Source: Acidimicrobiaceae bacterium (GTDB lineage Bacteria > Actinomycetota > Acidimicrobiia > Acidimicrobiales > RAAP-2). From it: a stretch of 40,040 bases of DNA. Both the position numbers and the translations under genes were made by a program. Every line of letters begins with the position of its first letter. Within the stretch, counting starts at the first letter, position 1. Under the pieces are notes generated by a model. The model had not been told where the DNA came from, did not search any database, and worked only from the letters and a program-made list of their open reading frames with translations. Where the stretch lies: assembly GCA_027315045.1 (NCBI GenBank), contig DAHUZS010000075.1, forward strand, positions 1 to 40,040, read 5' to 3'. This document shows, one piece after another, positions 24,351-40,040 of this stretch.

Positions 24351-24377
24351 GGTCGGCTCCTCGGATCGTGGCGGTCC

Positions 24378-25013
24378 TCAACCCGCACTGGAAGAAGTCT
24401 GCCCGAGTAGCTGAGCCCGGCGCCGACGCAGCAGCCACCAGGCGATGACCCCCACCGCCACCACGGCGATGGCGATACTCGTGTCACCGAACGCTGAGGC
24501 GACGTTCGACCAGTTGGCGGCGAGGCCGTAGCCGGCGCCCGCCAGGGCGAAGGTCCACGGCAGGCTGCCGAGCAACGTGAAGAGCGCGAACCAGCCGATC
24601 GGCATCTCGGCCACCCCGACCGGGAGGCTGATGAAGGTCCGGACGACCGGGAGGACACGACCGATGAGCACCGCCACCGCGCCCCGGCGGGCGAAGAAGG
24701 CCTCGGCCTTCTCCAGGTGGTGGCGGCGCACGAAGACGTAACGGCCGTAGCGCTCGACGAGCGGACGACCGCCGATCCGTCCGACGGCGTAGGCGATGAG
24801 CGCGCCAAGGAGGTTGCCCAAGGCGCCCCAGAGCGCCACGCCGACCAGGTTGACCGACGGGTGGCCGGCGGCCAGCAACCCCCCGGCCAGCGCCCCGCCG
24901 AAGAGCATGATCACCTCGCTCGGGATGGGGATGCAGGCCGACTCGAGCACCATGAGCCCGAACACCGCCAGATAGCCGTGGTGGAGGACCTGCGTGGTGA
25001 GCCAATGGGTCAT
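24378..25013 (-). CDS. DedA family membrane protein
   Basis: A 211-residue DedA/SNARE-associated family protein. Landmarks are VLESACIPIPSEVIMLFGGA near the start, LGALIAYAVGRIGGRPLVER, and the conserved FFARRGAVAVLIGRVLPVVR followed by TFISLPVGVAEM. Several membrane segments follow, with a basic RRRRAQ tail. Some DedA proteins have been identified as undecaprenyl-phosphate flippases, which fits the UppP-like gene 27 bp downstream. The ATG overlaps the M56 protease stop by 4 bp (ATGA), giving translational coupling. Substrate assignment to C55-P is inference from family and context. Confidence 0.9.
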   Translation of the reverse strand: MTHWLTTQVLHHGYLAVFGLMVLESACIPIPSEVIMLFGGALAGGLLAAGHPSVNLVGVALWGALGNLLGALIAYAVGRIGGRPLVERYGRYVFVRRHHLEKAEAFFARRGAVAVLIGRVLPVVRTFISLPVGVAEMPIGWFALFTLLGSLPWTFALAGAGYGLAANWSNVASAFGDTSIAIAVVAVGVIAWWLLRRRRAQLLGQTSSSAG

Positions 25014-25987
25014 GGATGCTCGCTCGCTTTCGCGCTGATCGGGGTCGGAGGGAATGGGACCGGTGCCGAGGTGCCATAGGCGCGCTCGGCCCGCTGGAAC
25101 AGGTCGTTGGTCTGGCTGAGGGCGCGGACAGCGGCACCTGCCGGCACCAGCGCCAGCACGGCCAGCGTCGCCGTCAACAGCGTTCGGCGACCGAGGGGGG
25201 GCCGCAGGAGCGCCTCGACCCGCAGGGCCTCCCCCGGGCCAGCCGCGGCCATCGTGGGTGCGGCCGGGATCTCCCTACCGCAGACCCGGGCCACGTGCCC
25301 GATGGTTCGGGCCACCAGGGCGCGGTCGCCGACCAGCCTCGCCGCCCGTTCGTCGGCCCATCGCTCGGTGGCCAGACCGATCGCCCCGCGGGCCGGCCTG
25401 AGCACGGGGTTGAGCGCACTGGCCAGCGAGACCGCCGCCCGGTGCAGCTCGTGGCGCCCGTCGAGATGGGCCTGCTCGTGGGCCAGCACCACCCGGATCT
25501 CCGATGTGCTGAGCGCTTGAAGCAGCTGCTGGGCGGCCACGATCCGGCCCGGCCAACCGGGCAGGGCGAAGACGGTCGGGCGTTCGTCGGGCAGGACCAC
25601 GAGCGCCCCCATCGAGCGACGGGCCAACCGCCAGGCGTCGGAGAGCGCCCGGGCCTCTCGCCAGGCCGCCTGGACGAGCAGCAGCCCCTGGCCAGCCAGC
25701 ACGACGGTGCCCAGCGCGAGGATCGCCGCCGGCACGGTGACCCGGGCCCGAACGAGATGGGCCGACCAGTGTCCCATCGCCGCCACCGGTTCCCACTGGC
25801 CGAGCAGCACCACGAAGAGCACGAGCGGCAAGGCGACCGAGACGGCGGCCAGGACGAGCGAGCCGAGCGACAGGGTCCACGCGGCGAGGCACGCCGGGGC
25901 GCGGCGGGCCACCGAGGGGGCGAGCAGGGCGAAGCCGGCGCACGACACCAGCGCGGCTCCCGACCAGATGAGCAACGAGGCGCTCAC
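25010..25987 (-). CDS. M56-family membrane metallopeptidase (BlaR1-like, no sensor domain)
   Basis: A 325-residue membrane protease with helices at about 4-25, 35-62, 84-107 and 268-290. The zinc motif HEQAH is at 170-174 in VVLAHEQAHLDGRHELHR, with a likely third ligand in the ERWADERAA helix (208-216). BlaR1/MecR1 proteins have this domain plus an extracellular penicillin-binding sensor; here the protein ends soon after the last helix, so no beta-lactam sensor is present. It should cleave the BlaI-type repressor encoded just upstream in response to an unknown envelope signal. The GTG at 25987 overlaps the BlaI stop by 4 bp. A longer open frame upstream is antisense-like read-through of the blaI region and is excluded. 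Confidence 0.9.
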   Translation of the reverse strand: MSASLLIWSGAALVSCAGFALLAPSVARRAPACLAAWTLSLGSLVLAAVSVALPLVLFVVLLGQWEPVAAMGHWSAHLVRARVTVPAAILALGTVVLAGQGLLLVQAAWREARALSDAWRLARRSMGALVVLPDERPTVFALPGWPGRIVAAQQLLQALSTSEIRVVLAHEQAHLDGRHELHRAAVSLASALNPVLRPARGAIGLATERWADERAARLVGDRALVARTIGHVARVCGREIPAAPTMAAAGPGEALRVEALLRPPLGRRTLLTATLAVLALVPAGAAVRALSQTNDLFQRAERAYGTSAPVPFPPTPISAKASEHP

Positions 25988-26343
25988 CGCCCTCCCTCCC
26001 CCTCGAGCGCCTGCCGGAGAGCCTCGAGCGCCCGACGGTCCAGGCCGGCCACGAACTGGCTGAGGACCCCGGTCCGGTCGCGCTGGTCCTCGAGCAGTGC
26101 CCGCATCCGGCTGGCCACCAAGCCGGCCTCGTCGAGGACCGGACGGTAGACGTAATTGCGACTGACGAGCTCCCGGATCACCGCGCCCTTGGCGTGAAGG
26201 CGAGCCAGGATGGTGCTCACGGTCGTGTGCGCGAGCCCGCCCCCGAGGCGTACGCGCACCTCCTCGGCCGACACCGGCTCGGGAGATGCCCACAGCACCG
26301 CCAGCACCTCGGCCTCCAGCCTGCCCGACGCCCGCCGATCCAT
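25984..26343 (-). CDS. BlaI/MecI/CopY family repressor
   Basis: A 119-residue winged-helix repressor. RLEAEVLAVLWASPEPVSAE, EVRVRLGGGLAHTTVSTILA and RLHAKGAVIRELVSRNYVYR match the DNA-binding domain of BlaI; the rest is the helical dimerisation domain that M56 proteases cut (FVAGLDRRALEALRQAL). The ATG at 26343 is chosen, preceded by AAGGAAAGG; an upstream ATG at 26406 would lie across the operator. A CTACA-N4-TGTAG palindrome sits 35 bp before the start. The gene heads a four-gene operon with M56 protease, DedA and UppP-like genes. Confidence 0.92.
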   Translation of the reverse strand: MDRRASGRLEAEVLAVLWASPEPVSAEEVRVRLGGGLAHTTVSTILARLHAKGAVIRELVSRNYVYRPVLDEAGLVASRMRALLEDQRDRTGVLSQFVAGLDRRALEALRQALEGEGGR

Positions 26344-26378
26344 GGCCCGAACCCTTTCCTTCTGGGGCCCGAAAACTA

Positions 26379-26392
26379 CTACAGGGATGTAG
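26379..26392. promoter_or_regulatory. BlaI-type operator
   Basis: CTACAGGGATGTAG is a perfect 5-bp palindrome with a 4-bp centre, matching the TACA/TGTA core of known BlaI/MecI operators. It lies 35 bp upstream of the repressor ATG, where it would block transcription of its own operon. Confidence 0.65.
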
Positions 26393-26506
26393 AAGAACGA
26401 GCCCACCAGGGCGCCCGGCCGACTGCGTCAGCCGAAGGGACCTGGTCGGGCCGCTGCCGTGCTCCTTCGATACGGAAAAGGACCCAGGGTGGATAGAACT
26501 CGGCAA

Positions 26507-26773
26507 ATGTCGTTGCTCCAATTTCGCTCCGCTGAGGCCCCGTTTGGCGATGCCCGCGTGGCCGGGGAGGCGGCCCGGCTGCTGGCGCTCCTCGAGGCGA
26601 TCGGCGTCTGGCACCCGCGCGCGGTGGTCGACAACCTCGGGGCCACGGTGTTCAGCGAGGCACTCGAGGCCCTCGCCAACCGGGACGTCGGCGTCACCGC
26701 CCCGTTCGAATGGAAGTCCCACGCCGAGGAGGGGCCAGAGGAGTTCGCCCGCTGGATCAGAACAGGTCCGTGA
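26507..26773 (+). CDS. Unknown small protein upstream of the toxin-antitoxin remnant
   Basis: An 88-residue protein from the ATG at 26507 that I do not recognise. It is mostly helical, with GEAARLLALLEAIGVWHPRA, VVDNLGATVFSEALEALANR and EEGPEEFARWIRTGP. Its TGA overlaps the antitoxin GTG (GTGA at 26770), so it is translationally coupled to the antitoxin and may be part of that system. TAGAAC lies 7 nt before the ATG and could be a weak -10. An in-frame start at 26459 would add 16 residues without support. Coding potential is moderate. Confidence 0.55.
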   Translation: MSLLQFRSAEAPFGDARVAGEAARLLALLEAIGVWHPRAVVDNLGATVFSEALEALANRDVGVTAPFEWKSHAEEGPEEFARWIRTGP

Positions 26774-27119
26774 CGACGTGGCCGCTTCCCCCGTCCCCGA
26801 CGCCGAGCTCCCGGCTCGACGACCTCTTTGGGACTGCTCGGCTGGCCGCCTACCTGGGAGTCGCCGGCTCCAGCCTTCGCCGGTACTTGGGGGGCAGCGT
26901 GACGTCCCCGACGACGTGGCGCTTCGAGCCCATCTGGTCGCCAGAATCGTGGGCGACCTGGCCGGCTCCTACAACGAACGGGGAGTCCGGAGGTGGTTCG
27001 AGCGCCCGCGGACCCAGCTGTCCGGACGCGCTCCCGAAGAGATCCTGCGCGCTCGGTGCGCACCCGAGGACAAGGACGTCGTCACCATGGGCGACCTCGC
27101 GGCCGCCCTCACCATCTGA
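26770..27119 (+). pseudogene. Xre/MbcA/ParS-type antitoxin, frameshifted
   Basis: From the GTG at 26770 one frame gives a helix-turn-helix, LDDLFGTARLAAYLGVAGSS then LRRYLGG. After GGGGGG at 26889-26894 the family match moves to another frame: DVPDDVALRAHLVARIVGDL, SYNERGVRRWFERPRTQLSG and EDKDVVTMGDLAAALTI. The second part is the toxin-binding domain of MbcA/ParS antitoxins. Adding one G to the run gives one protein of 116 residues with no stop. The antitoxin normally neutralises a RES-domain toxin, and remnants of one follow 1 bp downstream. Whether the frameshift is real decay, slippage or a base-calling error cannot be told here. Confidence 0.75.
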
Positions 27120-27120
27120 G

Positions 27121-27672
27121 GTGGCCGCCGGGGACCAAGCGCGACCGACGACCCTCGCGTACTGCGCCTGCGACCGCCGATATCCGTTCGTGTGGACCGG
27201 CTCCGAGCAGCCGGCCGGACGCTGACATGACCGGGGTGAGGGCCCGTGCCACTACCTCTCGACCACGGCGAAGGGGGCCTGGGCCGAGGTCATGCGCCAC
27301 GAGCAGATCACCGACCTCCTCGACCTCTTCGACCTGGAGCGGTCGCTCTGAGCTGTCGAGGTGGCTCGGCCCGACGCGGTGCCGCTGCTCGGCGAGGAGA
27401 TCTTGACCGACGGCCCGAGCTCGTATCCCGCCTGCCGCGCCGAGGCTCGCCGGATCCGAGCCGGTGGGGAGACCGGGCTGCGCGCGCCATCGGCCGCGGT
27501 GCGCTCGGGCCGAGCCGAGCGCATCCGATTGGACCGCCAGGGGCGGTTTGCGATCGAAGAGGTACGGACCGAGGTGCTCGTGGTGTGGGGCGACCCGCAC
27601 ACCCTGGGCGGCATGCCGCTCGCCGACGGCCACCCGGACCCAAACGCCCTCCTCGATGTTCGCCCGCTCTGA
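27121..27672 (+). pseudogene. RES-domain toxin with two in-frame TGA codons
   Basis: A single frame from the GTG at 27121 to 27672 reads as a RES-family toxin (MbcT-like, NAD-degrading family) apart from TGA at 27223-27225 and 27349-27351. Segments are YCACDRRYPFVWTGSEQPAG, then GEGPCHYLSTTAKGAWAEVM and RHEQITDLLDLFDLERSL, then AVEVARPDAVPLLGEEI, SSYPACRAEARRIRAGG and ETGLRAPSAAV. Both TGA codons fall where Trp is expected (the GRWH-like and SLWAV-like positions), each a single TGG to TGA change. With the frameshifted antitoxin upstream the cassette is probably inactivated. An internal GTG at 27361 could in principle start a 103-residue fragment. Confidence 0.7.
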
Positions 27673-27767
27673 GTCGTCGTAATGACCGGCCCGTCCCGGC
27701 GGCACACCGCGGCGAGGCGCTTAGGCCCAAATCCCCCGGACCCGATCGGCGTGGAAAGGTGTGCCCG

Positions 27768-28334
27768 ATGAGCGTCCAGGTGGTCTTCGAGACCCACTCG
27801 ATCAGCGAGGACAACGAGGCCGGGCGAGCCTCAGGGTGGTCGCACAGTCGCCTCTCCCCGCGCGGACGACAGCTCGCGGCCGAGCTCGGACGACGACGTC
27901 TGGACGACGGCCTCGTCGCCGTGTTCTGTTCGGACCTCAACCGCGCGGCGGAAACGGTGCGCCTGGCCTTCGCGTCAGGCGGTCCACCAATCTTCTTCGA
28001 CTGGCGACTGCGGGAGTGCGACTACGGCGAGCGCAACGGTGGTCCCGTGGCCGAGCATGCGGCCACCCGGGGGACCTTCCTCGATACCCCGTACCCGGGT
28101 GGGGAGAGCTGGCGCCAGGCGGTGCGCCGGGTCGGTGGCGCCCTGGTCGACCTCGGCTCCCGCTGGGACGGCCACCGGGTCCTGGTGGTCGGCCACAACG
28201 CGACCCATTGGGCGCTCGAGCACTACGCCATCGGCAGGCCACTCGAGGACTTGCTGCGCGCCCAGGGTGCATGGCAGGAGGGTTGGGAGTACTCGATCGC
28301 GTCGACGCGCATCGCGCTCGAACCCAGACCCTGA
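27768..28334 (+). CDS. Histidine phosphatase family protein, ETHS variant
   Basis: A 188-residue member of the phosphoglycerate-mutase-like superfamily. The usual RHG motif is replaced: VVFETHSISEDNEAGRASGW keeps the phospho-accepting His (residue 10) but has Thr and Ser around it. Later landmarks are SRLSPRGRQLAAELGRRRLD, VFCSDLNRAAETVRLAF, RLRECDYGERNGGP with the catalytic Glu, PYPGGESW, and LVVGHNATHWALEH with the second His. I recall a group of bacterial family members with this ETH form; substrate is unknown. GGAAAGG precedes the ATG at 27768. The gene is not overlapped by its neighbours. Bases 28335-28565 downstream contain no gene that I can support. Confidence 0.85.
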   Translation: MSVQVVFETHSISEDNEAGRASGWSHSRLSPRGRQLAAELGRRRLDDGLVAVFCSDLNRAAETVRLAFASGGPPIFFDWRLRECDYGERNGGPVAEHAATRGTFLDTPYPGGESWRQAVRRVGGALVDLGSRWDGHRVLVVGHNATHWALEHYAIGRPLEDLLRAQGAWQEGWEYSIASTRIALEPRP

Positions 28335-28565
28335 CCGGGCCGGGCGCAACGAGGAGCTGGTGGCGTCGCTTCGAACGGCGCCTAACCTCGTCGGGAACCG
28401 GTGACCGAAGACCCAGCGGTCACACGATGACGTCGAAGCAACGGAGTCGTCATCCGCTCGCCCTTGTCGGAGGGCCGGGCGAGACGGACACTCGCGTTGC
28501 CCAGTTCCGTGTCCTCGGTCCGCCGAGCCCCGGTGAGACCGCCGAGCCAGCCGCCAGAGGTTGTC

Positions 28566-28892
28566 ATGCCGACCTACATCTCGCTTCTCAAACTGGGCCA
28601 CCAGGGCGTGACCTCGATCAAGGAGTCGCCCTCCCGGCTCGACGCCGCACGTGAGCTCCTGCGCAACTTCGGGGTCGAGATGAAGGACGTCTACCTCACG
28701 CTGCTCGCGGTCTCGGCTTCGGGCAACGTGACCAGCGAGACCCTGCGGGCCTTCCGGGAGGACGAGTACCGAGACGTCGTCGGCGCGATCCAACCGGCGG
28801 GAGAGCATCCGGCTTTCGCCGCCGCCGAAGCGGTCCGCCAGAAGTTGGTCGAGTCGCTCGAAGAGCTGCAGCGAGCTCTCAGGCGGGACTGA
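28566..28892 (+). CDS. GYD-domain protein lacking the central GYD segment
   Basis: A 108-residue protein whose start PTYISLLKLGHQGVTSIKES and PSRLDAARELLRNFGVEMKD are clearly the first half of the GYD domain, and SGNVTSETLRAFREDEYRDV resembles its end. Between them, where members have about 20 residues including the GYD motif and an EAPDDE-like strand, the protein goes straight from VYLT to LLAVSASGNV. The gene thus appears to have an in-frame internal deletion. A helical extension of about 33 residues follows (FAAAEAVRQKLVESLEELQR). Its 3' end overlaps the convergent membrane-protein gene by 14 bp. Function of GYD proteins is unknown. Confidence 0.75.
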   Translation: MPTYISLLKLGHQGVTSIKESPSRLDAARELLRNFGVEMKDVYLTLLAVSASGNVTSETLRAFREDEYRDVVGAIQPAGEHPAFAAAEAVRQKLVESLEELQRALRRD

Positions 28893-31287
28893 CCGGCACC
28901 TCCCGAGCCCGGCGGCGGTGTCTCCCCCTCCGGTGCCGGCGCTCGAGGAGGAAGCCGGCCACCGCCAAGACGATGCCGGCGGCGGTGACGGCGTCGCCCA
29001 GCCTCCCGGCCGATCCCTGACCGTAGGTGAGGGTCACCTGGTGGCTGGTCGGGACCACCACCATCAGGTTGGGGGTGACCCGCCACGGGCCCTCCGCCCC
29101 GCTCGTCACCCAGTTGGGGAAGTAGGAGGTCTTGACCAGGACCGGGGAGCCGGTGCGCTCGACGTGGAAGCGGATCGTGTCGGTCCCCTCGACGATGTGG
29201 GTCACCTTGGCCGGCGCCACCGGGATCCTCGGGGGTAGCTGGCCGGCCTTGACTCGCGGCCAGTCGACCGGGCCGTCGGCGGCGAGCTCGACGGCCCAGC
29301 GGGCCGGATCGAGGTACCAGGACTGGGCGACCGGCAGCCAACTCGGTTGGGCCTGACCGACCCCTTTCACGACGGCCGGACGATCGTGGAGGGCGACGAC
29401 GGGGGCGGAGTCCGAGACCTGGAACACATCCCAGGTGATCGAGAGCGCCTGGTTCCCGTAGAAGGAGTGCCAGGGCCCGGTGGTGGCCACCAGGTGGAGG
29501 GCCGGGTCAGCCAGCGCGGCGTCGATCACCGAGGTGGTGTCGACCATCAAGTAGCGCACCCCGAGCAGCTGGAGGTGTTCGACCCCGAGGGGGACGTCGA
29601 CCGGTCCGTAGTCGAGGCCCACCATCGGCTCGGAGGGTGCGGGCGACAGCTCGGCCTGGTTCAAGAAGTGGTAGGGGGTCGTGGCTGAGGACTCGAAGAG
29701 CAACCCCTCCATGGAGTCGATGCAACCGCCGGTGAAGTACGGCAGGTCCATGAGCGCCTCGGGGGTGCCGAAACGGTTCTCGTTGGCGTCGTACTCCCAC
29801 ATGGCCCGCCCGCAGCCGTGGTGCTCGCCGACATTGGTCATGGTGGCCATGAGCGCCCGGAACTCGGGGTACGCCGGCGCGCCCTCGAAGCCCTGGTAGT
29901 TCCATGCCGCCCAGTAGGTCACCTGTTCGGCCCCCGGGGTGACCGGCAACGCGCTGGCCGGCAGGATGAAAGGCGGGATCACCACCGCCAGCGCGCCCAG
30001 CAACACCGCGAGGGGTCCGGCGACGGCCGCCGGAGCGAAGCGGTAGCGGCGCACCACCGGCGGGACGCGCAGCTCGTCGGCTGATCGGCGCCAGTTCCGC
30101 CAGGCCAGCACGACCGCGCGGATGACGACGGCGGCCAGCCAGCCGACCATCAGGTCGACGCAGAGGAACCACAGCGGGAGCAGCCGGACGTTGTAGAGGG
30201 CACCTTGAGGATCGAAACGGACACCGAGTGCCGCGCACCCGCCGAGCACGGCGAAGAGGATGCCGAAGCGGCTCCTGGTGGCCAAGGCCACCAGGACCGC
30301 CACCCCGGCCAAGATCAATGCCCAGAGATCGGCCCTCGGAAAGAACAGGGTCACGAAGGTGGTGATGTTCACGTACCCCATCTGGGTCGAGTAGCGGAGG
30401 TCGAGGACGAACGGCACGAGCCACCAGGCCGAGAGCGCGAGGCCAAGGCCGACGGTGGAGGAGCCCCACCACAGAGCCCGCAGCCGCCACCGGCCGGAAC
30501 GGTCGGGCATCGCGTCGTCAGCCCGGACGACGTCACCCAGCAGTTCGAGGACCACCAGCACCGCCGCACCGGCCAGGGCCATGAGGGCCGGGATGACGTG
30601 GGTGACGATGCACAGGGCCAGGACCACCGCCGCCAAACCCCGCCCCCGCCCGGTATGCAGGCCCCGGGCGAACAGACCCAGGAAGACCAGGGCCAACGGG
30701 ACGGCCAGGGAGAAGGCGTACTCACCGGCCAGGGTGGAAAACAGGTTCCCCCCGTAGATGGTCCAGGTGTAGTCGAAGAGGAAGGGCAAGGTGGCCGCCG
30801 CCAGGGCCGCCGGGCCCGGCGAGCGGAGCCCGAAGAGGCGTCCGCAGGCCCAGGCGCCGACCGGCATGAGCACGGAGCCGAGGACGGTCATGAGCTTGAA
30901 GGCCACGCCGTAGGGGATGAGGTAGCTGAGAAGCGCGGCGATGAGGTCGGGAAGGACGAAATAGAAGGTGTAGATGGGGTAGCCCGCGTACCAGCCGGGA
31001 TCCCAGCCGGTGAGCCTGGCGTTCGAGAGCAGATGGTTCCGCAAGAAGGCAGGCATGATGAAGTGCGAACCGGTGTCCCCGCCGGTCGTGGTGGTGTTGG
31101 TGAGCAGCAGGTTGAGGTGCATCTGCCACAGCACCACCACGATCACCCCCATGATCACCGCCGCGCTGGCGACACGCGGGAGCCACCCGGGAAACGACGA
31201 CGACGGGGTGAGCACGGGGGCGGGCGGCTCGGGGTGGATGTGGACCGAAGGCGACTCGGTCCCGAGCCCGGTGGACCCGAGGTCCAT
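28879..31287 (-). CDS. Large polytopic membrane protein, YfhO/GT-C-like
   Basis: An 802-residue membrane protein. A Pro-rich cytoplasmic head (1-35) precedes about 12 membrane helices between 38 and 460. A motif near the start, GGDTGSHFIMPAFLRN then GWDPGWYAGYPIYTFYFVLP, resembles the first extracytoplasmic loop of GT-C and YfhO-type membrane glycosyltransferases, where an acidic residue is catalytic. A large extracytoplasmic domain follows (about 470-760), with AWNYQGFEGAPAYPEFRALM, YDANENRFGTPEALMDLPYF and TIRFHVERTGSPVLVKTSYF then PNWVTSGAEGPW; this last block is typical of the C-terminus of YfhO-like proteins. A last helix and a basic tail end the protein. The ATG overlaps the CPBP stop (TGATG). 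A role in envelope glycan assembly is inferred. Confidence 0.8.
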   Translation of the reverse strand: MDLGSTGLGTESPSVHIHPEPPAPVLTPSSSFPGWLPRVASAAVIMGVIVVVLWQMHLNLLLTNTTTTGGDTGSHFIMPAFLRNHLLSNARLTGWDPGWYAGYPIYTFYFVLPDLIAALLSYLIPYGVAFKLMTVLGSVLMPVGAWACGRLFGLRSPGPAALAAATLPFLFDYTWTIYGGNLFSTLAGEYAFSLAVPLALVFLGLFARGLHTGRGRGLAAVVLALCIVTHVIPALMALAGAAVLVVLELLGDVVRADDAMPDRSGRWRLRALWWGSSTVGLGLALSAWWLVPFVLDLRYSTQMGYVNITTFVTLFFPRADLWALILAGVAVLVALATRSRFGILFAVLGGCAALGVRFDPQGALYNVRLLPLWFLCVDLMVGWLAAVVIRAVVLAWRNWRRSADELRVPPVVRRYRFAPAAVAGPLAVLLGALAVVIPPFILPASALPVTPGAEQVTYWAAWNYQGFEGAPAYPEFRALMATMTNVGEHHGCGRAMWEYDANENRFGTPEALMDLPYFTGGCIDSMEGLLFESSATTPYHFLNQAELSPAPSEPMVGLDYGPVDVPLGVEHLQLLGVRYLMVDTTSVIDAALADPALHLVATTGPWHSFYGNQALSITWDVFQVSDSAPVVALHDRPAVVKGVGQAQPSWLPVAQSWYLDPARWAVELAADGPVDWPRVKAGQLPPRIPVAPAKVTHIVEGTDTIRFHVERTGSPVLVKTSYFPNWVTSGAEGPWRVTPNLMVVVPTSHQVTLTYGQGSAGRLGDAVTAAGIVLAVAGFLLERRHRRGRHRRRAREVPVSPA

Positions 31288-32189
31288 CAGTGGACGAGCC
31301 CCGCTCGGCTGGAGACGATGGCGAGCACCGCGACGAGGTTGAACGTCGCGTGGGCGACCATGTTCATCCCCAACCGACCGGTCCGCAGCGCGACCGCGGC
31401 CAGGATGCACCCGAAGACCGCCAGGCCGGCCAGCTGCTCGAGCTCGGCGTGAGCGAGGCCGAAGAGCAGCCCGTCGGCCACCACCGCCACGGCGATCGTC
31501 CCCGCCTTAGCCCCGGCCTGCCTCAGCCGTGAGCCGGTCGCGCCGAGGAGCCCGAGGAGGCCCTTGAAGAGGACCCCACGAAAGAACAGCTCCTCGAAGA
31601 ACGGTGCCCCGAGCACGGTCATGATGGCGATCACGGCGAAGGAGCCCCCGTGCGCCCCCCCGGTGAGCTTGGTCGTGGGGGCCTGGAAGTTCTTCAGGTG
31701 CGAGACGAACGGGAGGTAGAGGAGGGTCACCAGCACCTGCCCGCCGATGCCGATCGCGACGCCGGCCACGTCGACCGGGCGGAACGAGATCCCGAGGTCG
31801 GAAACCAAATGCCCGCTCCCGCGCGCCCGGACGGCCAGGACCGGCGCAACGAAGAACCCCACCCACAGGCCCACCAGCCCCGAGCCGATGTACCAGGCCG
31901 GCGGTGCGGCCAGCTGGGAGATCGCGCTGAGCCGAACTCCGTTGCCGGTGATCGATGCCACCAGGTCCACGGCGATCAGGGCCACCACCTGGCCGACGAC
32001 GAAGCCGATGGCGGCGAACACCACCCACCAGCCGGCATCGGCGCGTGAGGCCGGAACGGTGCTCGGCGCCTCCCCGGGCCCCGGGGCCCACCAGTGCCCC
32101 GGGCTCGATCCGGGCGACCACCACTTCGCTCCGTGCTCCGGGACTCCGGGGCGGACGTCGCGCCCCTCGTCGTCGCCGGAGGAGGCCAT
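31287..32189 (-). CDS. CPBP-family intramembrane metalloprotease
   Basis: A 300-residue CAAX-protease/bacteriocin-processing (CPBP, Abi) family protein with about eight membrane helices. The active-site motifs are present: Glu199-Glu200-x3-Arg204 in GAPFFEELFFRGVLFKGLLG, His247 in LLFGLAHAELEQL and His280 in NMVAHATFNLVAV. A Trp/Gly/Pro-rich cytoplasmic segment of 50 residues precedes the first helix. The ATG at 32189 is chosen because TATCGT lies 6 nt upstream on the minus strand, the pattern of a leaderless start; in-frame starts further upstream lack support. It is translationally coupled to the large membrane-protein gene and divergent from ftsH. Substrate unknown. Confidence 0.88.
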   Translation of the reverse strand: MASSGDDEGRDVRPGVPEHGAKWWSPGSSPGHWWAPGPGEAPSTVPASRADAGWWVVFAAIGFVVGQVVALIAVDLVASITGNGVRLSAISQLAAPPAWYIGSGLVGLWVGFFVAPVLAVRARGSGHLVSDLGISFRPVDVAGVAIGIGGQVLVTLLYLPFVSHLKNFQAPTTKLTGGAHGGSFAVIAIMTVLGAPFFEELFFRGVLFKGLLGLLGATGSRLRQAGAKAGTIAVAVVADGLLFGLAHAELEQLAGLAVFGCILAAVALRTGRLGMNMVAHATFNLVAVLAIVSSRAGLVH

Positions 32190-32195
32190 CGAGCC

Positions 32196-32201
32196 ACGAT
32201 A
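32196..32201 (-). promoter_or_regulatory. -10 box (TATCGT) of the CPBP gene
   Basis: On the minus strand TATCGT ends 6 nt before the ATG at 32189, with no Shine-Dalgarno. The spacing predicts a leaderless transcript. Confidence 0.5.
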
Positions 32202-32225
32202 CTGCCGGGGTTTTGTCATCTTGGG

Positions 32226-32239
32226 GCGCTCAGGAGCGC
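32226..32239. promoter_or_regulatory. Palindrome in the CPBP/ftsH divergent promoter region
   Basis: GCGCTCAGGAGCGC is a perfect 6-bp inverted repeat with a 2-bp centre, located between the divergent CPBP and ftsH genes, about 25 bp upstream of the CPBP -10 box. It could bind a regulator of either gene; the binding protein is unknown. Confidence 0.35.
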
Positions 32240-32324
32240 AGCCGCGGGCCTCGGCACGCGTTCTTCCAGCGTGGAGCCAATCCGCGACGGGCCCGGCCGG
32301 TACCATGGCTCCGGCACCGGCGCA

Positions 32325-32330
32325 TAGCAT
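32325..32330 (+). promoter_or_regulatory. -10 box (TAGCAT) of ftsH
   Basis: TAGCAT ends 6 nt before the GTG at 32337, with no Shine-Dalgarno between. It fits a leaderless ftsH transcript. Confidence 0.5.
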
Positions 32331-32336
32331 GGCCGG

Positions 32337-34466
32337 GTGAGTCCGTCACGGCCGGACCGGCCGAACCGCCTGCCGAACACCGGCGGCGGGAACAACCCGA
32401 ACCCCGGCAACGACCAGAGCTGGCGCTGGATCTGGACCGTGCTCATCGTCGCGGTCCTGGCCGTGCTCGTGGTCCCCTCGCTCCTCCCCCACTCCTCGGC
32501 CACCTCGATCAACTACGCGAACTACCTGAAGGACGTGAAGGCCGGCCACGTCGCGACCGCCACCATCGACAACTCGACCGGGGTGATCACCGGCAAGCTC
32601 ACCGACGGCGCCAACTACACCAGCCAGGGCCCCAACCCCTACAGCCAGACCGACGTCAACGCGATGCGCAAGGACGGGTTGGCGGTCAACTTTTCCCAGC
32701 CCTCCTCGAGCATCCTCTCGGCGATCCTCCCGTACGTGCTCCTGGTCGGCCTGTTCGCCGCGGTCATGTGGCTCATGACCAGACAGGCCCGGGGACAGAT
32801 GTCCGGAATCATGTCGATCGGTCGCTCGCGAGCCCGGATGTACAGCGCCGAACGGCCCTCGACCACCTTCGGTGACGTCGCCGGCTACAACGGCGTCAAA
32901 CAGGAGATCTCCGAAGTGGTCGACTTCTTGAAGACGCCGGCCCGTTTCAAGGAGATCGGGGCCAAGATCCCCAAGGGGGTCCTCTTGGTGGGCCCGCCGG
33001 GGACCGGCAAGACCCTGCTCGCCCGGGCGGTGGCCGGCGAGGCCGGCGTGCCCTTCCTCTCAGTCTCGGGCTCGGACTTCATGGAGATGTTCGTCGGCGT
33101 CGGCGCCTCACGGGTGCGGGACCTGTTCCAGACGGCCCGCAAGCAGGCCCCGGCCATCGTGTTCGTGGACGAGATCGACTCCATCGGCCGAAAGCGGGGC
33201 GCCGGGCTGGGCGGCGGCCACGACGAACGGGAGCAGACGCTCAACCAGATGCTCTCGGAGATGGACGGGTTCGACCCGGCCGAGGGCGTCGTCATGATCG
33301 CCGCTACCAACCGGCCGGACATCTTGGACCCTGCGCTGCTCCGACCGGGCCGGTTCGACCGCCAGATCGTGGTGCCCCTCCCCGACCTCGACGAGCGCCT
33401 GCCCATCCTCCAGGTGCACTGTCGGGACAAGCGGATGAGCCCCGACGTCGACCTCGACCTCGTGGCCAGGGGCACCCCGGGGATGAGCGGGGCCGACCTG
33501 GCCAACCTGGTGAACGAGGCCGCCCTGCACGCGGTGCGGCGGGGCTCGCCCTCCATCGCCATGGCCGACTTCGAGTCGGCCCGAGACCGGGTGCTCATGG
33601 GCCAGCGACGCGAGTCGTTGATCCTCTCGGACGACGAGAAGGAGCGCGTCGCGTACCACGAGGGCGGGCACGCCGTCTTGGCCTACGTGCTCGAGAACGC
33701 CGACCCGGTGCACAAGGTGACCATCTTCCCCACCGGAATGGCCCTCGGCGTTACCCAGCAGCTCCCGATGGAAGAGCGTCACATCCATCCTCGCAGCCAC
33801 ATCGAAGACGCGTTGTGCGTGCGGATGGGCGGCCGGGCGGCCGAGCTCCTCGTCTACGGCGACCTCTCCACCGGGGCCGCCAACGACCTGGTGGGCAACA
33901 CCGAACTGGCCCGCAAGATGGTGCGGGAATGGGGCATGAGCGAGGACATCGGCCCCATGGCCTGGGGCTCCCAGGGCCAGGTGTTCCTGGGCGAGGACCT
34001 CATGCACACCCGGGACTACTCCGAGCACACCGGTCAGATCATCGACGACGAGGTCGAACGGATCCTCCGGGCCCAGGAGGAGCGGGCCTTGGAGGTCCTT
34101 TCCCGTCACCGCAAGGGGCTCGACGCCGTGGCCAAGGCCCTGCTCGAGGACGAGACCATCGAGGGGGCGATGGTCGGCCGGCTGGTCGACGACGCCTACG
34201 GACGGCCCGTGCACGCCACTGGCAAGAAAGCGGCCCCCACCTTCAACGGGAACGGCTCCCGGGCCGAGGCCTCCGAGGCAGCGGCCGGCGAGGACGAGCC
34301 TGTGACCCAATCCGAGCCCGAAGCGGTCCAGACCCACGCCGCCGCGCTGGCCGCACAACCGCCGGCGCCCCGGGGCACCACCCCGTCGGGCTGGCCCGCA
34401 CCCCAGTGGCCACCGCCGCAGTGGAGCCCACCCCCCCAACCCGCACCGGGCCCGGGCGAGAGCTGA
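32337..34466 (+). CDS. ftsH: ATP-dependent zinc metalloprotease FtsH
   Basis: A 709-residue membrane AAA+ protease that degrades misfolded membrane proteins and regulatory substrates. Order of parts: a Pro/Asn-rich head, first helix (about 30-50), an extracytoplasmic domain, second helix (about 126-147), AAA+ module with Walker A GPPGTGKT (219-226), Walker B IVFVDEID with Asp278-Glu279, the second region of homology [20 protein letters not shown], and the zinc protease motif HEGGH at 441-445. The carboxy-terminal [20 protein letters not shown] follows, with the third zinc ligand Asp. The last 90 residues are Pro/Ala-rich and disordered, as in other actinobacterial FtsH. It converges on the DUF5719 gene with a 6-bp gap. 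All key residues are intact. Confidence 0.97.
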
Positions 34467-34472
34467 GCCGGC

Positions 34473-36029
34473 TCAGCCGGAGGCCCGACCCACCGCCGGC
34501 AACGACACCACCCCGGCGGTGGCCGCCGGCACCAGGTCCTCGAGAACTAAGAGCGGCTCGCTGGCCGTGACCACCAACGCGGCGAGGCCCAACCCTCGGA
34601 GCCCCGCGGCCTGCTGTACCCCGATGGAGGCCGTCGCCGCCAGGCTGACGGCACGCCCTGCCGCCACCTCGGCCCGGGCCGCCCGGACGAGATGGCTCCC
34701 GCGGACGGCCCACACCGTGGCCGACAACCCCCGCGCCCCGGGGTTGTAGAGATCGAGGGTCGCCACCCCGGCCCCGGGAACGGCCGGGTCGGCATCGGTG
34801 CCGGGCCCGGGCAGTACGGCACTCATCGCGCCGGGGGTCCCACTTGGCAGGCCGAGCGCGCTCATCGCTCCGAACTGGGGCCCGCCGAAGGAGCTCGGGG
34901 CGTCCACGCTGCGGTCGACCACCACGCCCGCCCCTCTCCCGACCACCCGCACGGTGGCCAGGAACGGGATCGCGTCGGGAATCCGGTTTTGGCCGCTCGT
35001 CTCCAGCACCCACGCGCTGGTCGGCGCGACGAACTGGGTGAAGGAGGCCGGAGGGGAGCGGAACGGCCGCACGTCGATCCGGACCCGCTCGCTCCGGGAG
35101 GTGGGGTTGAAGACGGTGAGCACGCTCAGCCCCCCGGTGAGGTCGATCGAGCGCGGGAGGGCCCAGGCCCGCTCGGGCTCGGGCGAACCCAACCGCACCG
35201 AGAGCCCGTGAGAACCATTGGACGAGACCGTCTGCAGCGCCGCGGCCACCACCGAGCCGGTCCGGACCGAGACCACGGTCGAGACCGACCGGGCGTCCTG
35301 GACGTAGCGGTCGATCTGCTCGACCGCCAGGCTCCCCGGCGCCACCACGATGCCCTCGAATGGCTGGGGCTGCGAAATGCCCGAGGGGGTGGCGAAGGTC
35401 ATGTCCACCACGGCCACGGTGGAGGTCGGGTTGTACAGCGAGATGGCCAGTGTCCCAGCGTTGACCGTCGAGCCCGAGGCGAAGTACCAGTCGGTCGCGG
35501 TGGCGCGCGAACAGGGGGTCGCCGACCAGCCGAGCGGACCGGCCACGGACTCGGTGACCAACACCCCACCCCCGGCCACCGTCACCGTGGCGGCGACGAA
35601 CGCGCCACCGGCGAGGGCACCGGGGACCTCTTCGATCTGGGTGAACGACGGGATCACCACCCGCTCGCTCTTGCGGGCCCCGGTGTCGCTCACCGCGCTG
35701 AGGGTGGCCGTCGCCGCGTGGTCGGTCGTGTTCAGGAGGTGGAGGGTCTCCTGGGCGGTCGAGCCGTTCGCCGGCGTCCCGCCGGCGCAATACCCGGCGG
35801 AGGACTCGACGGGGGCCGGCGCGATCTCGTTCGGCGGCACCCCAGGGGGCTGGATCGGTGCGGGACGGGACACCACGGCGTTCACCACCCCCCCGGCGAC
35901 CCCGGCCGCGACGATCGCCAGCACCAAGACGAGGCGATAGGGCGACCGGGGCCTCGGGGCCGGCTCGGAGGCATCGGCGGGCGTGCCGTCGGTCCCGTCG
36001 TCGAAGAAGCCGGGCGGGCGGGTGCTCAC
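34473..36029 (-). CDS. DUF5719 family secreted/anchored protein
   Basis: A 518-residue protein with a short cytoplasmic head, one membrane helix (about 31-54) and a long Ser/Thr/Val-rich extracytoplasmic part made of repeated beta-type units (NTTDHAATATLSAVSDTG, YNPTSTVAVVDMTFATPSG, FNPTSRSERVRIDVRPF, YNPGARGLSATVWAVRGS). This is the layout of DUF5719 proteins that follow large GT2 genes in Actinobacteria. The repeat NPTS-like turns suggest four or more related domains. Its GTG overlaps the glycosyltransferase stop by 4 bp, so they are coupled and probably work together at the envelope. No catalytic motif is seen. Function is unknown. Confidence 0.8.
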   Translation of the reverse strand: MSTRPPGFFDDGTDGTPADASEPAPRPRSPYRLVLVLAIVAAGVAGGVVNAVVSRPAPIQPPGVPPNEIAPAPVESSAGYCAGGTPANGSTAQETLHLLNTTDHAATATLSAVSDTGARKSERVVIPSFTQIEEVPGALAGGAFVAATVTVAGGGVLVTESVAGPLGWSATPCSRATATDWYFASGSTVNAGTLAISLYNPTSTVAVVDMTFATPSGISQPQPFEGIVVAPGSLAVEQIDRYVQDARSVSTVVSVRTGSVVAAALQTVSSNGSHGLSVRLGSPEPERAWALPRSIDLTGGLSVLTVFNPTSRSERVRIDVRPFRSPPASFTQFVAPTSAWVLETSGQNRIPDAIPFLATVRVVGRGAGVVVDRSVDAPSSFGGPQFGAMSALGLPSGTPGAMSAVLPGPGTDADPAVPGAGVATLDLYNPGARGLSATVWAVRGSHLVRAARAEVAAGRAVSLAATASIGVQQAAGLRGLGLAALVVTASEPLLVLEDLVPAATAGVVSLPAVGRASG

Positions 36030-39000
36030 GGCGGTCCCCCGACCCGTTCGCGCCGTCGGCTCCTCTCCGACGCGGGCGCGGCCGGCCGAAGGATGGTCTC
36101 GCTCGGCTGGGCACTGGCCAACGCCCGCACCCGCCCCCGCAGGGCGAAGCGCCGGTCGAGCAGCAGGCCGACCACCAGCACCCAGAGAACGAGCTCGAGG
36201 GCGGCCCCGATCCCGGCCAACGGCACGGACGAGAACGCGAGCATCCCAGGCCCGGCGCGGGCCACCTTGAACTGGGCCGCCCAGGAGAACGCCGGGGCGA
36301 CCGGCAGGGACGTGCCCCCGACCGTGAGGTGGAAATCACCGGCCGGCGCCATGCCGGCATAGAGGGTTCCTGCACCCACCGATCCGGTGTAGCCGGAGCC
36401 CGAGTTGGTCCCGAGCGCCGGGTGCCAACCCGAGAGGTCCCCGGGCGAGGGCACCGTCAGGCCGGCGGCGGGACCGGACGTCGCCCTGGTCTCGGTGACG
36501 AGCCCGGCGGTGCGGGTCGCCCGTTCGGGGATGGTCGCGGTGTTGTCGTAGACCAAGAAGCCCTCCCCGCCCGGAACCTGGCGGAGGTCCCCTTGCTGGT
36601 CGAGCGAGGAGACCACGTCTGCGGGGACCGGGTAGGAGACGGCGGCGCCCAATCCGACGGCGCTCGGGGCCAGGTTCTCCACCACGACCACGTAGCGAAC
36701 GGCCTCCGGGGCCAGCAGGCGGCCGAGGTGCACGGTCTTGCCCGCTCGGGCCAATTCGACGGCGGTAGCCAGCTGATCAGCCGGACCCGGCGCGGCCGGG
36801 GCATAGAGGTCGGCCGCGCTCGGCGGGCCGGTGTCGGTGGTGGCATAGGCGAGGCCGGGCGAGATCGACCACGACCCGAGCGGCAACGCGGCGGGGTCCC
36901 CCAGCCAGAGCACCCGGTAGGAGTCGCCGCGGGGGGTGGCGATGAACTGCAGCGAGCGCTCGTAGCCGTTGGCGGGCAGTCCGAAGCTCCCGTTGGTCAC
37001 CTCGGCGGCAACCGGGAGCATCCCGAACGCCGCCGCCAGCATCATGAGCGAAGTGGCCAGCTGGCGCCAGCTGAAACGTTGGCCGATGAGGTCGGTCTCG
37101 AACGCGGCGACGCCGAGGCCCACGCCCGCGGCGACCGCGACGGCCGCCGGCACCAAGAGGACGTCGACGCCGGGGGCGAAGGAGCCGGTCCAGCCCCGGT
37201 CGACCACGAGCCCGAGGCCGAAGGAGACCAACGCCATCGTCCACAGCCGGGCAGCCCAGGCCAGCCGGGGTCCGGCCCCGACCAGGACCGGGAGGAGGCC
37301 GGCGACCGGCAGCAGCCAGCTCAGGCCCGACCCCCCGACCGGGCCGAGATCGAAGCGGAGCAGGGCGGACCAGCCGACGGCACGCGACGGCGCGGAGGGC
37401 AGCCCGAGCACCCCGAGGGCATGAGAGCCCGAGAGGGCGACGCCGATGACCCACGGTGCGCACAGGACGAGGGCGACGCCGATGCCACCGAGGGCCACCC
37501 GAACGGCCCGCACCGCCTCGGCGCTCGTCTTCGAAAACCACGACCCCAACCACAGACCGAACGCGCCGATCGCCACGTCGACGACCATCGCGGGAACGAA
37601 CGCGATGCCGATGGCGATGAGGACCCCAAGGCCGAACAGCTGGCTCCGCGGCTGGCGCCCGTGACGGCCGAGCGCCGCCACACCGAAGGGTTCCAGGGTG
37701 GTGGCCCGCATGAGAGTCGAGATGATCCACGGGGCCAGCGCGTACGCCACCATCGCGTCGAGGCGCCCCCGGGCCAAGGCGTCGTAGACGAGCGGGAGGC
37801 CCAGATAGGCCGCCGCCCCGAACAGCCGGCCCCGGCGCGAGCCGAAGGGGCCCAAGAGGCGGGAGACGCCCCAGGCGCCGACCGGCACACAGCCGAAGAT
37901 CAGCACCTTCTGGGTGAGCCCCATGCCGCCCAGGAGCACGGTGGCGAGCGCGCCAAGGGCGGCGTAGGCGGGAGACGACGGGGCGGTGGTCCCGACCCCC
38001 TGGGCGTGCCAGCTGGCGAAGAACTGGTGCCAGGTGGCCGGCCACGACGAGAGCGGGAGGAACTGACCGATGGCCGGGAAGGCGCCGCCGATCAGATGAC
38101 GCACTCCGATCACGAGCAAGAGGGTGATCACCAGCGCGCTCAGAAGCCGGGAACGGCGGCTGGCCAGGAGTCGCGAGCGGCTGGGACCACGCGGAGCCAG
38201 CCGGCCGCGGTCGTCCCAGTCCTCGTCGAAGGTGTCGTCCTCGGAGAAGGCGCCGGCGATGGAGCCGGTCAGCTCGGGCACCTCGGTCTCGTCGTCCCGG
38301 GAGAGTGCCCCGACCCGGGCATGGGTGGCCTCGAAGCCGAGATGGCTCACGTTGGAGACGTACTCGGAGAGCCGGGCGCTCCCCCGCAGCTGGTTCCGGC
38401 GGACCTGGTTGTCCGAGGCGGCTCGGGAACGCTGCACCCGCCGGCGAGCGTCGAGGAGCTCGGCTCGACGGGCCAGGTTCCACCGCCAGGCGCCGAGGAC
38501 CGCTCGGACCCGTCCTCGGTCCCGGGCGACCGAAGCGACCATGACCTCGCCGAGATTGAGGGCCGCGACCTGGGGCAGAACCCGGAGGAGGTGCAGGGAG
38601 CTGTAACACTTAAGCACGGCGCGCAGCTCGTGGCGGCGCTGGAGGGCCTGGAGGGTGGCGCTGGCGTCGGCGCCCGTCAGCACCGGCTCGACGCCCGGTG
38701 CGATGACCTCCAGGTGCCGGACGCGGGCGTCGGGGGCCACGATCACCCGGGCCCCGGTCACCTGGGCCCGCCAGCACAGGTCGAGGTCCTCGGCCATGGC
38801 CACGATCCCGGGATCGAACCCGCCGAGCTCGGTCATCAGGTCAGCCCGGATCAAGACACATCCGCTCGGGGCGACGAAGACGTCCCGCACGCCGTCGTGT
38901 TGGCCGTGGTCGATCTCGGGACTCTGGACCCGGTCCACCACGGCGCCGGTCTTGTCGGCATTCATGCCCACATGCACCAGCATGAGCGGGTCGTCCCAGC

Positions 39001-39364
39001 TGACCATCTTGGGGGCCACGACCGCCGCGTTGGACCGGAACGACTCTTCGACCATGAGCCGGACGGCCGACGGGTCGGGGGCGCAGTCGTCGTGACAGAC
39101 CAAGAAGAAGGTCGCCCCCTCCACCATGCCGAGGACCTGGTTTGCCGCCGCGCCGAAGGCGAGGGGCTCCTCGGTCGCCCGGACGAAGGCGTCGGGGAAG
39201 ACCCGGCCCACCCGTTCGGTCGGGTCCGCGCCCCCCGCCGCCACCACGACCACCACCAGCTCGGGATAGTCCTGAGCGGCGAGGGCCCGGAGGGTCCCCT
39301 CGAACCACGGCCCGGGGTCCCTGGTGACCACCACCGCCACCACCGCAGGCGCGCGGGTGTCCAC
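36026..39364 (-). CDS. GT2 glycosyltransferase with large membrane domain
   Basis: A 1112-residue protein. The N-terminal third is a family 2 glycosyltransferase: VVAVVVTRDPGPWFEGTLRA, the nucleotide-sugar motif HDDCAPD with Asp92-Asp93, and the acceptor-side AEDLDLCWRAQVTGARV. A basic cytoplasmic linker follows with several Arg-rich stretches, then a membrane domain of about 12 helices (from about 410 to 800) and a C-terminal extracytoplasmic domain (YRVLWLGDPAALPLG, GLAYATTDTGPPSAADLYAP) ending in a last helix and a basic tail. The architecture matches actinobacterial GT2-plus-membrane proteins paired with DUF5719 and believed to build envelope glycans. The GTG at 39364 has TAGCCT 9 nt upstream, a leaderless pattern. 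Sugar and acceptor are unknown. Confidence 0.88.
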   Translation of the reverse strand: MDTRAPAVVAVVVTRDPGPWFEGTLRALAAQDYPELVVVVVAAGGADPTERVGRVFPDAFVRATEEPLAFGAAANQVLGMVEGATFFLVCHDDCAPDPSAVRLMVEESFRSNAAVVAPKMVSWDDPLMLVHVGMNADKTGAVVDRVQSPEIDHGQHDGVRDVFVAPSGCVLIRADLMTELGGFDPGIVAMAEDLDLCWRAQVTGARVIVAPDARVRHLEVIAPGVEPVLTGADASATLQALQRRHELRAVLKCYSSLHLLRVLPQVAALNLGEVMVASVARDRGRVRAVLGAWRWNLARRAELLDARRRVQRSRAASDNQVRRNQLRGSARLSEYVSNVSHLGFEATHARVGALSRDDETEVPELTGSIAGAFSEDDTFDEDWDDRGRLAPRGPSRSRLLASRRSRLLSALVITLLLVIGVRHLIGGAFPAIGQFLPLSSWPATWHQFFASWHAQGVGTTAPSSPAYAALGALATVLLGGMGLTQKVLIFGCVPVGAWGVSRLLGPFGSRRGRLFGAAAYLGLPLVYDALARGRLDAMVAYALAPWIISTLMRATTLEPFGVAALGRHGRQPRSQLFGLGVLIAIGIAFVPAMVVDVAIGAFGLWLGSWFSKTSAEAVRAVRVALGGIGVALVLCAPWVIGVALSGSHALGVLGLPSAPSRAVGWSALLRFDLGPVGGSGLSWLLPVAGLLPVLVGAGPRLAWAARLWTMALVSFGLGLVVDRGWTGSFAPGVDVLLVPAAVAVAAGVGLGVAAFETDLIGQRFSWRQLATSLMMLAAAFGMLPVAAEVTNGSFGLPANGYERSLQFIATPRGDSYRVLWLGDPAALPLGSWSISPGLAYATTDTGPPSAADLYAPAAPGPADQLATAVELARAGKTVHLGRLLAPEAVRYVVVVENLAPSAVGLGAAVSYPVPADVVSSLDQQGDLRQVPGGEGFLVYDNTATIPERATRTAGLVTETRATSGPAAGLTVPSPGDLSGWHPALGTNSGSGYTGSVGAGTLYAGMAPAGDFHLTVGGTSLPVAPAFSWAAQFKVARAGPGMLAFSSVPLAGIGAALELVLWVLVVGLLLDRRFALRGRVRALASAQPSETILRPAAPASERSRRRERVGGPP

Positions 39365-39373
39365 GAGATGGTG

Positions 39374-39379
39374 AGGCTA
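39374..39379 (-). promoter_or_regulatory. -10 box (TAGCCT) of the glycosyltransferase gene
   Basis: On the minus strand TAGCCT ends 9 nt before the GTG at 39364, with no Shine-Dalgarno in between. It resembles the other leaderless starts in this window. Confidence 0.4.
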
Positions 39380-39425
39380 CTGGTCCCGCGCCACCACCGG
39401 CAGGAGCCCCCGGAACCACGAATGC

Positions 39426-39454
39426 TTGCAACTGTTATACACACGCGATACAAT
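39426..39454 (+). promoter_or_regulatory. Near-consensus housekeeping promoter
   Basis: TTGCAA at 39426-39431 and TACAAT at 39449-39454 are separated by exactly 17 bp, in an AT-rich island unlike the surrounding DNA. This is the best sigma70-type promoter in the window. It should start transcription near 39461, giving a leader of about 40 nt with AAGGAGG before the ATG at 39500. Confidence 0.75.
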
Positions 39455-39499
39455 CGTAGGCAGATCAGGCACGAGACCAACATGCTAAGGAGGCTCACC

Positions 39500-39901
39500 A
39501 TGCCCGCCGACTTCACCGACCGTGACGAGATCGCCCGCTTCGGCCGATTCACCAAGGGTGCCGTCGACACCGCGGTCGGCTTCGGCGTGCTGGGCCTCCA
39601 GCGGCTCCAAGTCGGCCGGGTCGCGCTGAGCCGGCGCCTGGCCAGCCACGAGACCTTCGGGCCGGGTTACCTCGCCATGCGTACCGAGGCCGTCCGTCGG
39701 GCCGGTCAGGTGGACCGCTTGTTCACCGAGGCCCTCCGGACCGTCGGGTCCACCCTCGAGCCCATCGCCGAACGCCTGCCCGAGCCGGCCCGCCAGGTGG
39801 CCACGGTCGTTCAACGACGCTTTGACGAGCTCCACGCGAAGGTGAGCGAGCACCTGGCCGACGCCCGGGCCGACGGCCAACACCCGACCGACACCGACTG
39901 A
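39500..39901 (+). CDS. Unknown 133-residue helical protein, strongly expressed by prediction
   Basis: I do not recognise this protein. It has no signal peptide, no cysteine and no membrane helix, and appears mostly helical: DRDEIARFGRFTKGAVDTAV, GFGVLGLQRLQVGRVALSRR, RRAGQVDRLFTEALRTVGST, LEPIAERLPEPARQVATVVQ and RFDELHAKVSEHLADARADG. The amphipathic pattern is loosely phasin-like, but that is only a resemblance. The ATG at 39500 has the ideal Shine-Dalgarno AAGGAGG 6 nt upstream, and a near-consensus promoter lies about 45 bp before it, so high constitutive expression is expected. It is divergent from the glycosyltransferase gene and ends 9 bp before an IS110-type fragment. Confidence 0.75.
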   Translation: MPADFTDRDEIARFGRFTKGAVDTAVGFGVLGLQRLQVGRVALSRRLASHETFGPGYLAMRTEAVRRAGQVDRLFTEALRTVGSTLEPIAERLPEPARQVATVVQRRFDELHAKVSEHLADARADGQHPTDTD

Positions 39902-39910
39902 ATGACGCTC

Positions 39911-40040
39911 CTATGGCGCGTCAAATCCCACTGATGAGCCTTCGAGGACACGGAAGAGCTGACGCGCGACGTAGCGCTTGAGGCATCGCTTGATCTCTCG
40001 GTCGCTCTTGCCTTCGGCCCGACGACGCTCGACGTAGGCA
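39911..40040 (-). mobile_element. 3' end of an IS110-like transposase (partial)
   Basis: The minus-strand frame entering at the right edge encodes the last 42 residues of a protein: AYVERRRAEGKSDREIKRCL, then KRYVARQLFRVLEG and a stop at 39911-39913. R.RAEGKS.RE....LKRY.AR matches the C-terminal helix of IS110-family (DEDD) transposases. The rest lies outside the window. IS110 elements lack long terminal inverted repeats, so the boundary cannot be set here. Confidence 0.75.

Follow-up and report, generated by a model that had tools for sequence, protein, structure and literature searches.

The regulator MLDSR controls MLDS, the major lipid-droplet protein, and its binding box in Rhodococcus jostii is given as GNT(T/A)GCTNNTGCTANC in the accessible part of PMC5504291. 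A likeness of HBHA, which we group here with MLDS and TadA, to apolipoproteins is also stated in the accessible part of PMC6176652. In the open literature, as judged by titles and abstracts, we found no work tying MLDSR to the Acidimicrobiia, and a search joining Acidimicrobi- with heparin-binding hemagglutinin returned nothing.

Acidimicrobiia, which are actinobacteria of soil and water, are difficult to culture. They are rich in the neutral-lipid synthase WS/DGAT, with 3.6 homologues for each genome of Ilumatobacter and 10 in 'Ca. Microthrix parvicella' according to the available sections of PMC10351704, which, where they touch on Acidimicrobi-, lipid droplet and triacylglycerol, describe no coat protein. 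Our open-literature search likewise returned no described droplet coat protein of this class. Here we analysed one stretch of acidimicrobial DNA (the window, 40,040 nucleotides in full), near the end of which lies a small gene under a conserved promoter. We think it fairly likely that its 133-residue product is a neutral-lipid-inclusion coat of the Acidimicrobiia under MLDSR-type control, doing the job of MLDS, TadA and HBHA.

The locus and its protein family

An earlier note, made from the letters of the window, had described a TTGCAA-17-TACAAT promoter, an AAGGAGG ribosome-binding site and a 133-residue open reading frame, and all of these are present where it had placed them (Table 1). The note had also called the promoter exceptional. 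It is the only sigma-70-type site in the window with 9 of 12 matches: a scan against shuffled sequences gave one such site in positions 20041-40040 (0.3 expected) and none in 1-20000 (0.7 expected). The promoter score by itself is no evidence, since shuffles yield about one such site per 40 kb, so that the count stands at chance level. We take the promoter as real because it is conserved upstream of homologues beyond chance. The very high expression that the note derived from these signals stands as a prediction.

Table 1. Coordinates of the features at the locus, in window positions
Feature	Position	Strand	Remarks
-35 hexamer TTGCAA	39426..39431	+	TTGC in 59/59 rows of the position weight matrix (PWM), the rows having been picked by that pattern
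-10 hexamer TACAAT	39449..39454	+	17-nt spacer
Operator-promoter core TGCTTGCAACTGTT	39423..39436	+	MLDSR-type half-sites around the -35 hexamer; covered by the PWM
Position of second half-site	39434..39440	+	GTTATAC in the window, degenerate; GTTAGCA in many relatives
Third half-site GTAGGCA	39456..39462	+	just 3' of the -10 hexamer and 22 bp beyond the second; many relatives have G(T/C)TAGCA
Ribosome-binding site AAGGAGG	39487..39493	+	6 nt 5' of ATG 39500
Gene of the family, 133 aa; product amphipathic and helical, specific to Acidimicrobiia, a proposed coat of lipid inclusions	39500..39901	+	stop codon 39899-39901
Hydrophobic helix with glycine motif near the N-terminus, containing TAVGFGVLGLQRLQV; about residues 17-40	39548..39619	+	most conserved part of the family in the alignments
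Giant GT2 glycosyltransferase	36026..39364	-	divergent, conserved neighbour
DUF5719 protein	34473..36029	-	next in the GT2 module

Two further open frames border on or overlap the gene. A frame of 1347 aa (35858-39901, plus strand) runs antisense to the GT2 gene and continues in frame into the small gene; GC-rich codon use seems to account for it, and it does not look like a gene. At the contig end a partial frame (AYVERRRAEGKSDREIKRCLKRYVARQLFRVLE..., 39914-40039, minus strand) occupies the place where relatives carry an epimerase gene downstream of the small gene. It has no Pfam match and presumably resembles the C-terminus of an IS110-type transposase.

The protein itself has no Pfam or NCBIfam match above cut-off, in agreement with the note's view that its family is unassigned. 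The note would have been refuted by a lack of conservation in relatives, but the gene is found by tblastn in 34 of 61 genomes (the window's own and its relatives, with all seven of the genus) and by profile search, within the order, in 169 of 298. Profile searches gave a match at E 0.01 in 58 of 148 genomes drawn from the class, a draw that included the same order. Of 396 genomes drawn from the phylum, 41 matched. Phylum-draw matches outside the class reach E 6.6e-6 at best, cover the profile partially and fall mostly on its C-terminal half; we take them as chance. Judged from these searches, the family appears to be new and confined to the class Acidimicrobiia, with the proviso that the class-wide signature proteins described in the accessible part of Hu et al. 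2018 (PMC5962788) could include it. Named records come from Acidimicrobiaceae or Acidimicrobiales metagenome genomes; the other labels are Actinomycetes, Actinobacteria or Actinomycetota, with one Acidimicrobiia and one Acidobacteriota.

Compared with its closest relative, the gene has 16 synonymous and 17 nonsynonymous codon differences, with 11, 6 and 20 differences at the three codon positions. Two alignments were used: A1, which left out 4 of 30 loci (L007, L015, L021, L030), and A2, which left out 14 of 65 named members (L058, L065, L073, L075-L077, L090, L092, L096, L098, L099, L104-L106). In G067, a single-contig genome of 2.2 Mb, the A1 profile found nothing. In one family of the order (L150, L151, L153) the members are shortened to 74-84 residues, with N-terminal helix and GT2 neighbour both retained. 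In some other homologues (L152, L138) repeated acidic-proline motifs (DLPKFDMPEID-like) extend the protein at its N-terminus, ahead of the conserved helix.

The operator-promoter element and its proposed regulator

The pattern TGCTTGCAAnnGTT, with at most two mismatches, stands upstream of 58 of the 65 named homologues, and the reversed pattern upstream of none. TAnnnT follows the -35 hexamer by exactly 17 nt in 49 of these 58, compared with a mean of 0.30 and a maximum of 6 at other offsets. Additional half-sites occur among the 59 PWM rows, GTTAGCA at offset 11 in 13 rows and G(T/C)TAGCA at offset 33 in 19. Read by eye, the core is present with at most two mismatches in all 12 loci of other orders (L138-L149). 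Among four distant loci of the same order it is present in L152 and absent from the upstream stretch examined in the three with shortened members (170 bp in the case of L150, in G167). Exact sites number 55, in 44 of the 61 genomes (nine for the reversed pattern), and by coordinate comparison 33 of them lie directly upstream of a family gene; the window's genome has a single exact TGCTTGCAANNGTT site, at this locus. A longer form of the pattern gave sites in G038, G049 and G019 that pointed to divergent homologues not picked up by the first protein search.

The element lies anywhere from 39 to 228 bp ahead of the start codon, in contrast to the fixed -10 spacing, and there are no Rfam matches; a riboswitch or leader RNA was rejected on these grounds. 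Left of the element, towards the GT2 gene, there is no conserved signal (maximum 0.51 bit), and a bidirectional promoter also serving GT2 was therefore rejected as well.

The element, TGCTTGCAAnnGTTAGC, is laid out 6-4-6, as is the published MLDSR box. Counted by hand, its common form in the family, GCTTGCAACTGTTAGC, agrees with the box at 10 of the 12 specified positions, and the copy in the window at 9. The same element also stands at three mycobacterium-like hbhA loci (L221, L223 and L224). There an XRE gene immediately precedes that of HBHA, and operators GCTTGCAAAAGTTAGC, GCTTGCAATAGCAAGC and GCTTGCAAAAGCAAGC precede it by about 73-76 bp from its start (hand count), with one or two mismatches to the published box in the better orientation. 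Two of these mldsr-hbhA promoters also read TTGCAA, 17 nt, and then TAGTGT or TACTCT. Among 47 loci of the phylum (L184-L230), the pattern occurs in these three alone, the second matches in L223 and L224 being the same palindromic sites on the opposite strand. By comparison of sequences, then, the promoter of the window gene appears to bear the operator of a lipid-droplet-protein regulator, and not merely to be a strong promoter. Two other regulators were rejected because their motifs, compared by eye, misfit the element: McdR (AATnACAnnnnTGTnATT, from the accessible part of PMC9040748) and WhiB2 (cGACACGc).

The XRE regulator of mlds is MLDSR (RHA1_ro02105; Rv0474). An orthologue was found in 56 of the 61 genomes, as a rule one per genome and in most with 46-62% identity; three of the 56 matches (G040, G045, G052) are weak and probably paralogues. 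The window's genome encodes a regulator with 56% identity (G000, contig C51, 5718-6053, minus strand). Over the helix-turn-helix stretch compared with the mycobacterium-like XRE protein, 48 of 67 residues are identical, and the core reads SNPYLSQ(I/V)ERGLR(K/R)PSA. Unlike MLDSR, whose locus adjoins mlds or hbhA, the acidimicrobial orthologue has a glycosyltransferase gene nearby in 28 of 30 loci, presumably of the MshA type, and 29 of the 30 have no operator at two or fewer mismatches, L239 having one at two mismatches. In G000 the regulator and the family gene, which is on contig C78, are not adjacent. Since the regulator is encoded elsewhere and the operator is not repeated at its locus, the window gene is apparently a trans-regulated target of it, and a principal one. 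Across genomes, exact site and regulator do not co-occur significantly (p 0.13 and 0.11), and G008 and G039 have the element with no regulator match at E 1e-10.

Protein character and gene neighbourhood

Residues V26, G27, G29, V30 and G32 are invariant across the 52 members of alignment A2, and in several distant members the N-terminal helix is the main conserved part. This helix is hydrophobic (Kyte-Doolittle below 1.6 in 63 of 64 members). The remainder is strongly amphipathic, with a mean moment of 0.37 as against 0.19 in shuffles; for the C-terminal part this held in all 60 members, each with at most 2 of 50 shuffles reaching the observed value. AlphaFold models of two members have three helices at low confidence (mean pLDDT 61.5 and 56.2).

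The Pfam family Apolipoprotein (PF01442) is touched by 37 of the 52 members (best E 5.9e-8) and, in a comparison of ten, by 8 real sequences as against none of the shuffled ones. The window protein has no PF01442 match at E 0.5. The gathering cut-off of 90 bits was not reached, the best of ten members scored singly giving 24.3 bits. The amphipathic part of the family also matches apolipoproteins A-I and A-IV by profile, reaching apoA-IV in the PDB at E 5.6e-12. We read these matches as marking a helix type rather than kinship, because PF01442 matches many unrelated bacterial helical proteins (found in 91 of 198 genomes of actinobacteria and in 7 of 14 controls, in no case over cut-off). The likeness is thus taken to denote lipid-surface-type helices, arrived at convergently, and neither ancestry nor membership. 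Other Pfam and solved-structure matches of the relatives are weak and of a generic amphipathic or coiled-coil kind. 

These features can be compared with those of the known droplet proteins. MLDS, TadA and HBHA share with the window family what looks like the same promoter-operator type, the presence of an orthologous regulator gene, a hydrophobic N-terminal segment, and amphipathic helices that Pfam places nearest to Apolipoprotein A1/A4/E (for HBHA itself at E 3.8e-4). In contrast, MLDS and HBHA have about 200 residues as against about 120-145 in the window family, their gene forms an operon with that of the regulator and does not stand beside GT2, and they end in a Lys-rich PAKKA tail that the window protein lacks. 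No homology to HBHA was detected, with hhalign probabilities of 1.9% (A2) and 1.3% (A1) against an HBHA side of three sequences from one genus, so shallow an alignment that a remote link may have gone unseen. The protein thus probably works like MLDS and HBHA, not being a demonstrated member of their family. What is new, as far as sequence comparison can tell, is probably that a different protein family is the target of a known regulator-operator type and a candidate inclusion coat.

Because its type of regulator is the one that controls MLDS, the protein could also be a droplet- or membrane-associated nucleoid or stress protein, for which genome protection would be the main task and lipid binding a secondary one. 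MLDS binds DNA through its Lys-rich tail and so ties droplets to DNA (PMC5504291, accessible part). The window protein, however, is without such a tail and has a net charge of 0, and we hold this role to be quite improbable.

The neighbourhood bears on a second alternative. The divergent GT2 gene adjoins the family gene in 62 of 66 loci and keeps this place in all 16 distant loci; DUF5719, of which our open-literature search found no account, follows GT2 in both loci annotated, and an epimerase gene and GT4 genes also follow at the locus. This constancy favours an envelope accessory, that is, a peripheral membrane scaffold for the GT2-DUF5719 glycan machinery, serving polymer elongation or septal placement. 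The MLDSR-type site would then be there because the regulator controls envelope or surface proteins more widely. In three actinobacterial genomes outside the Acidimicrobiia (G461, G448 and G485; loci L214, L218 and L220) whiB lies upstream of the same GT2 on the same strand, on the flank that the divergent small gene occupies in Acidimicrobiia, and WhiB2 controls division according to the accessible part of PMC9040748, which is a further point for an envelope role. Against such a role, GT2 was found in 23 of 24 genomes picked for having no detected homologue of the small gene, and is thus independent of it; the GT2 side of the element lacks any conserved signal; and an operator of the MLDSR type is known to mark a lipid-droplet protein. 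An envelope function therefore seems unlikely to us, and we prefer a coat of fat droplets because what looks like the same control element governs the droplet coat of Rhodococcus and mycobacteria.

Storage-lipid genes and the proposed function

WS/DGAT is present in 54 of the 61 genomes, with two copies in that of the window. Where it is missing the regulator tends to be missing too: the 7 genomes without it and the 5 without the regulator overlap in three, G018, G048 and G051 (one-sided Fisher p 0.0087 over 61 genomes and 0.0054 over the 48 at least 90% complete, counts which ignore shared ancestry, the three genomes belonging to three families). In these three the exact element is absent too. 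Two of them, G018 and G051, nevertheless keep a form of the gene, the copy in G018 (L154) being divergent and still beside GT2. Four others, G004 (95% complete), G034 (97%), G028 (84%) and G036 (64%), have the gene and the regulator and no WS/DGAT match; the occurrence of the gene in genomes without the synthase is a point in favour of the envelope role considered above, and against a droplet coat.

The earlier note had suspected a granule-associated protein and had proposed phasin-like binding. The first part stands as the best-supported class of function, for reasons other than those the note gave. A phasin coating polyhydroxyalkanoate (PHA) granules would also be small and helical, like the granule-coat proteins of PF05597 and PF09361, and its promoter could be conserved in the same way; six of the 52 members match PF05597 weakly, with E 0.004 at best, none over cut-off and the window protein not among them. 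Yet the PHA synthase (PF07167, PhaC_N) is found in 5 of the 61 genomes and not in the window's (93% complete), although the gene is widespread. In G045 and G049 the small helical gene that adjoins PhaC is another one, accompanied by an XRE paralogue of its own. For most carriers, which have no PHA synthase, a phasin role on PHA is refuted, and we consider it extremely improbable for the family.

Distant XRE paralogues were seen near a small helical gene at L261, L262, L263, L266 and L268. The genomes concerned are G045 and G049, where paralogue, PHA synthase and small helical gene stand together (as at L261 and L262), and G054, G060 and G040, where a small helical gene lies near the paralogue. 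Six phasin-size neighbours of such paralogues gave no Pfam phasin match. These loci are possible phasin operons of the Acidimicrobiia.

The preferred reading, a coat of neutral-lipid inclusions, could work as follows. The gene would be transcribed from a sigma-A promoter whose three-half-site operator covers the -35 hexamer, the spacer and the start region, and an XRE protein of the MLDSR type, a repressor-activator whose gene lies at another place in the genome, would bind there. On droplets of triacylglycerol or wax ester, the phospholipid monolayer would carry the short hydrophobic glycine-motif helix together with the two long amphipathic ones, and the protein may be abundant there. By analogy with R. 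jostii, the droplets may soak up the regulator and in this way set the amount of coat protein.

A broader reading, which we hold tentatively and at slightly less than even confidence, is that the MLDSR-type regulator and its TGCTTGCAA-N2-GTTAGC operator form an ancient lipid-inclusion switch of the Actinomycetota that has outlived its target: it would act on MLDS or HBHA in mycobacteria and Rhodococcus and on a sequence-unrelated coat in Acidimicrobiia, with paralogous regulators for phasin-like genes in PHA-forming Acidimicrobiia. Under this broader reading, coat proteins of storage inclusions could be found by their operator where sequence search fails. A coat specific to the class, under a regulator-operator pair that mycobacteria share, would in itself provide a first handle on the fat inclusions of the Acidimicrobiia and a marker for the class. 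It would also be a case of a promoter element traceable over a wider range than its protein; search by the element was enough to find the three divergent homologues.
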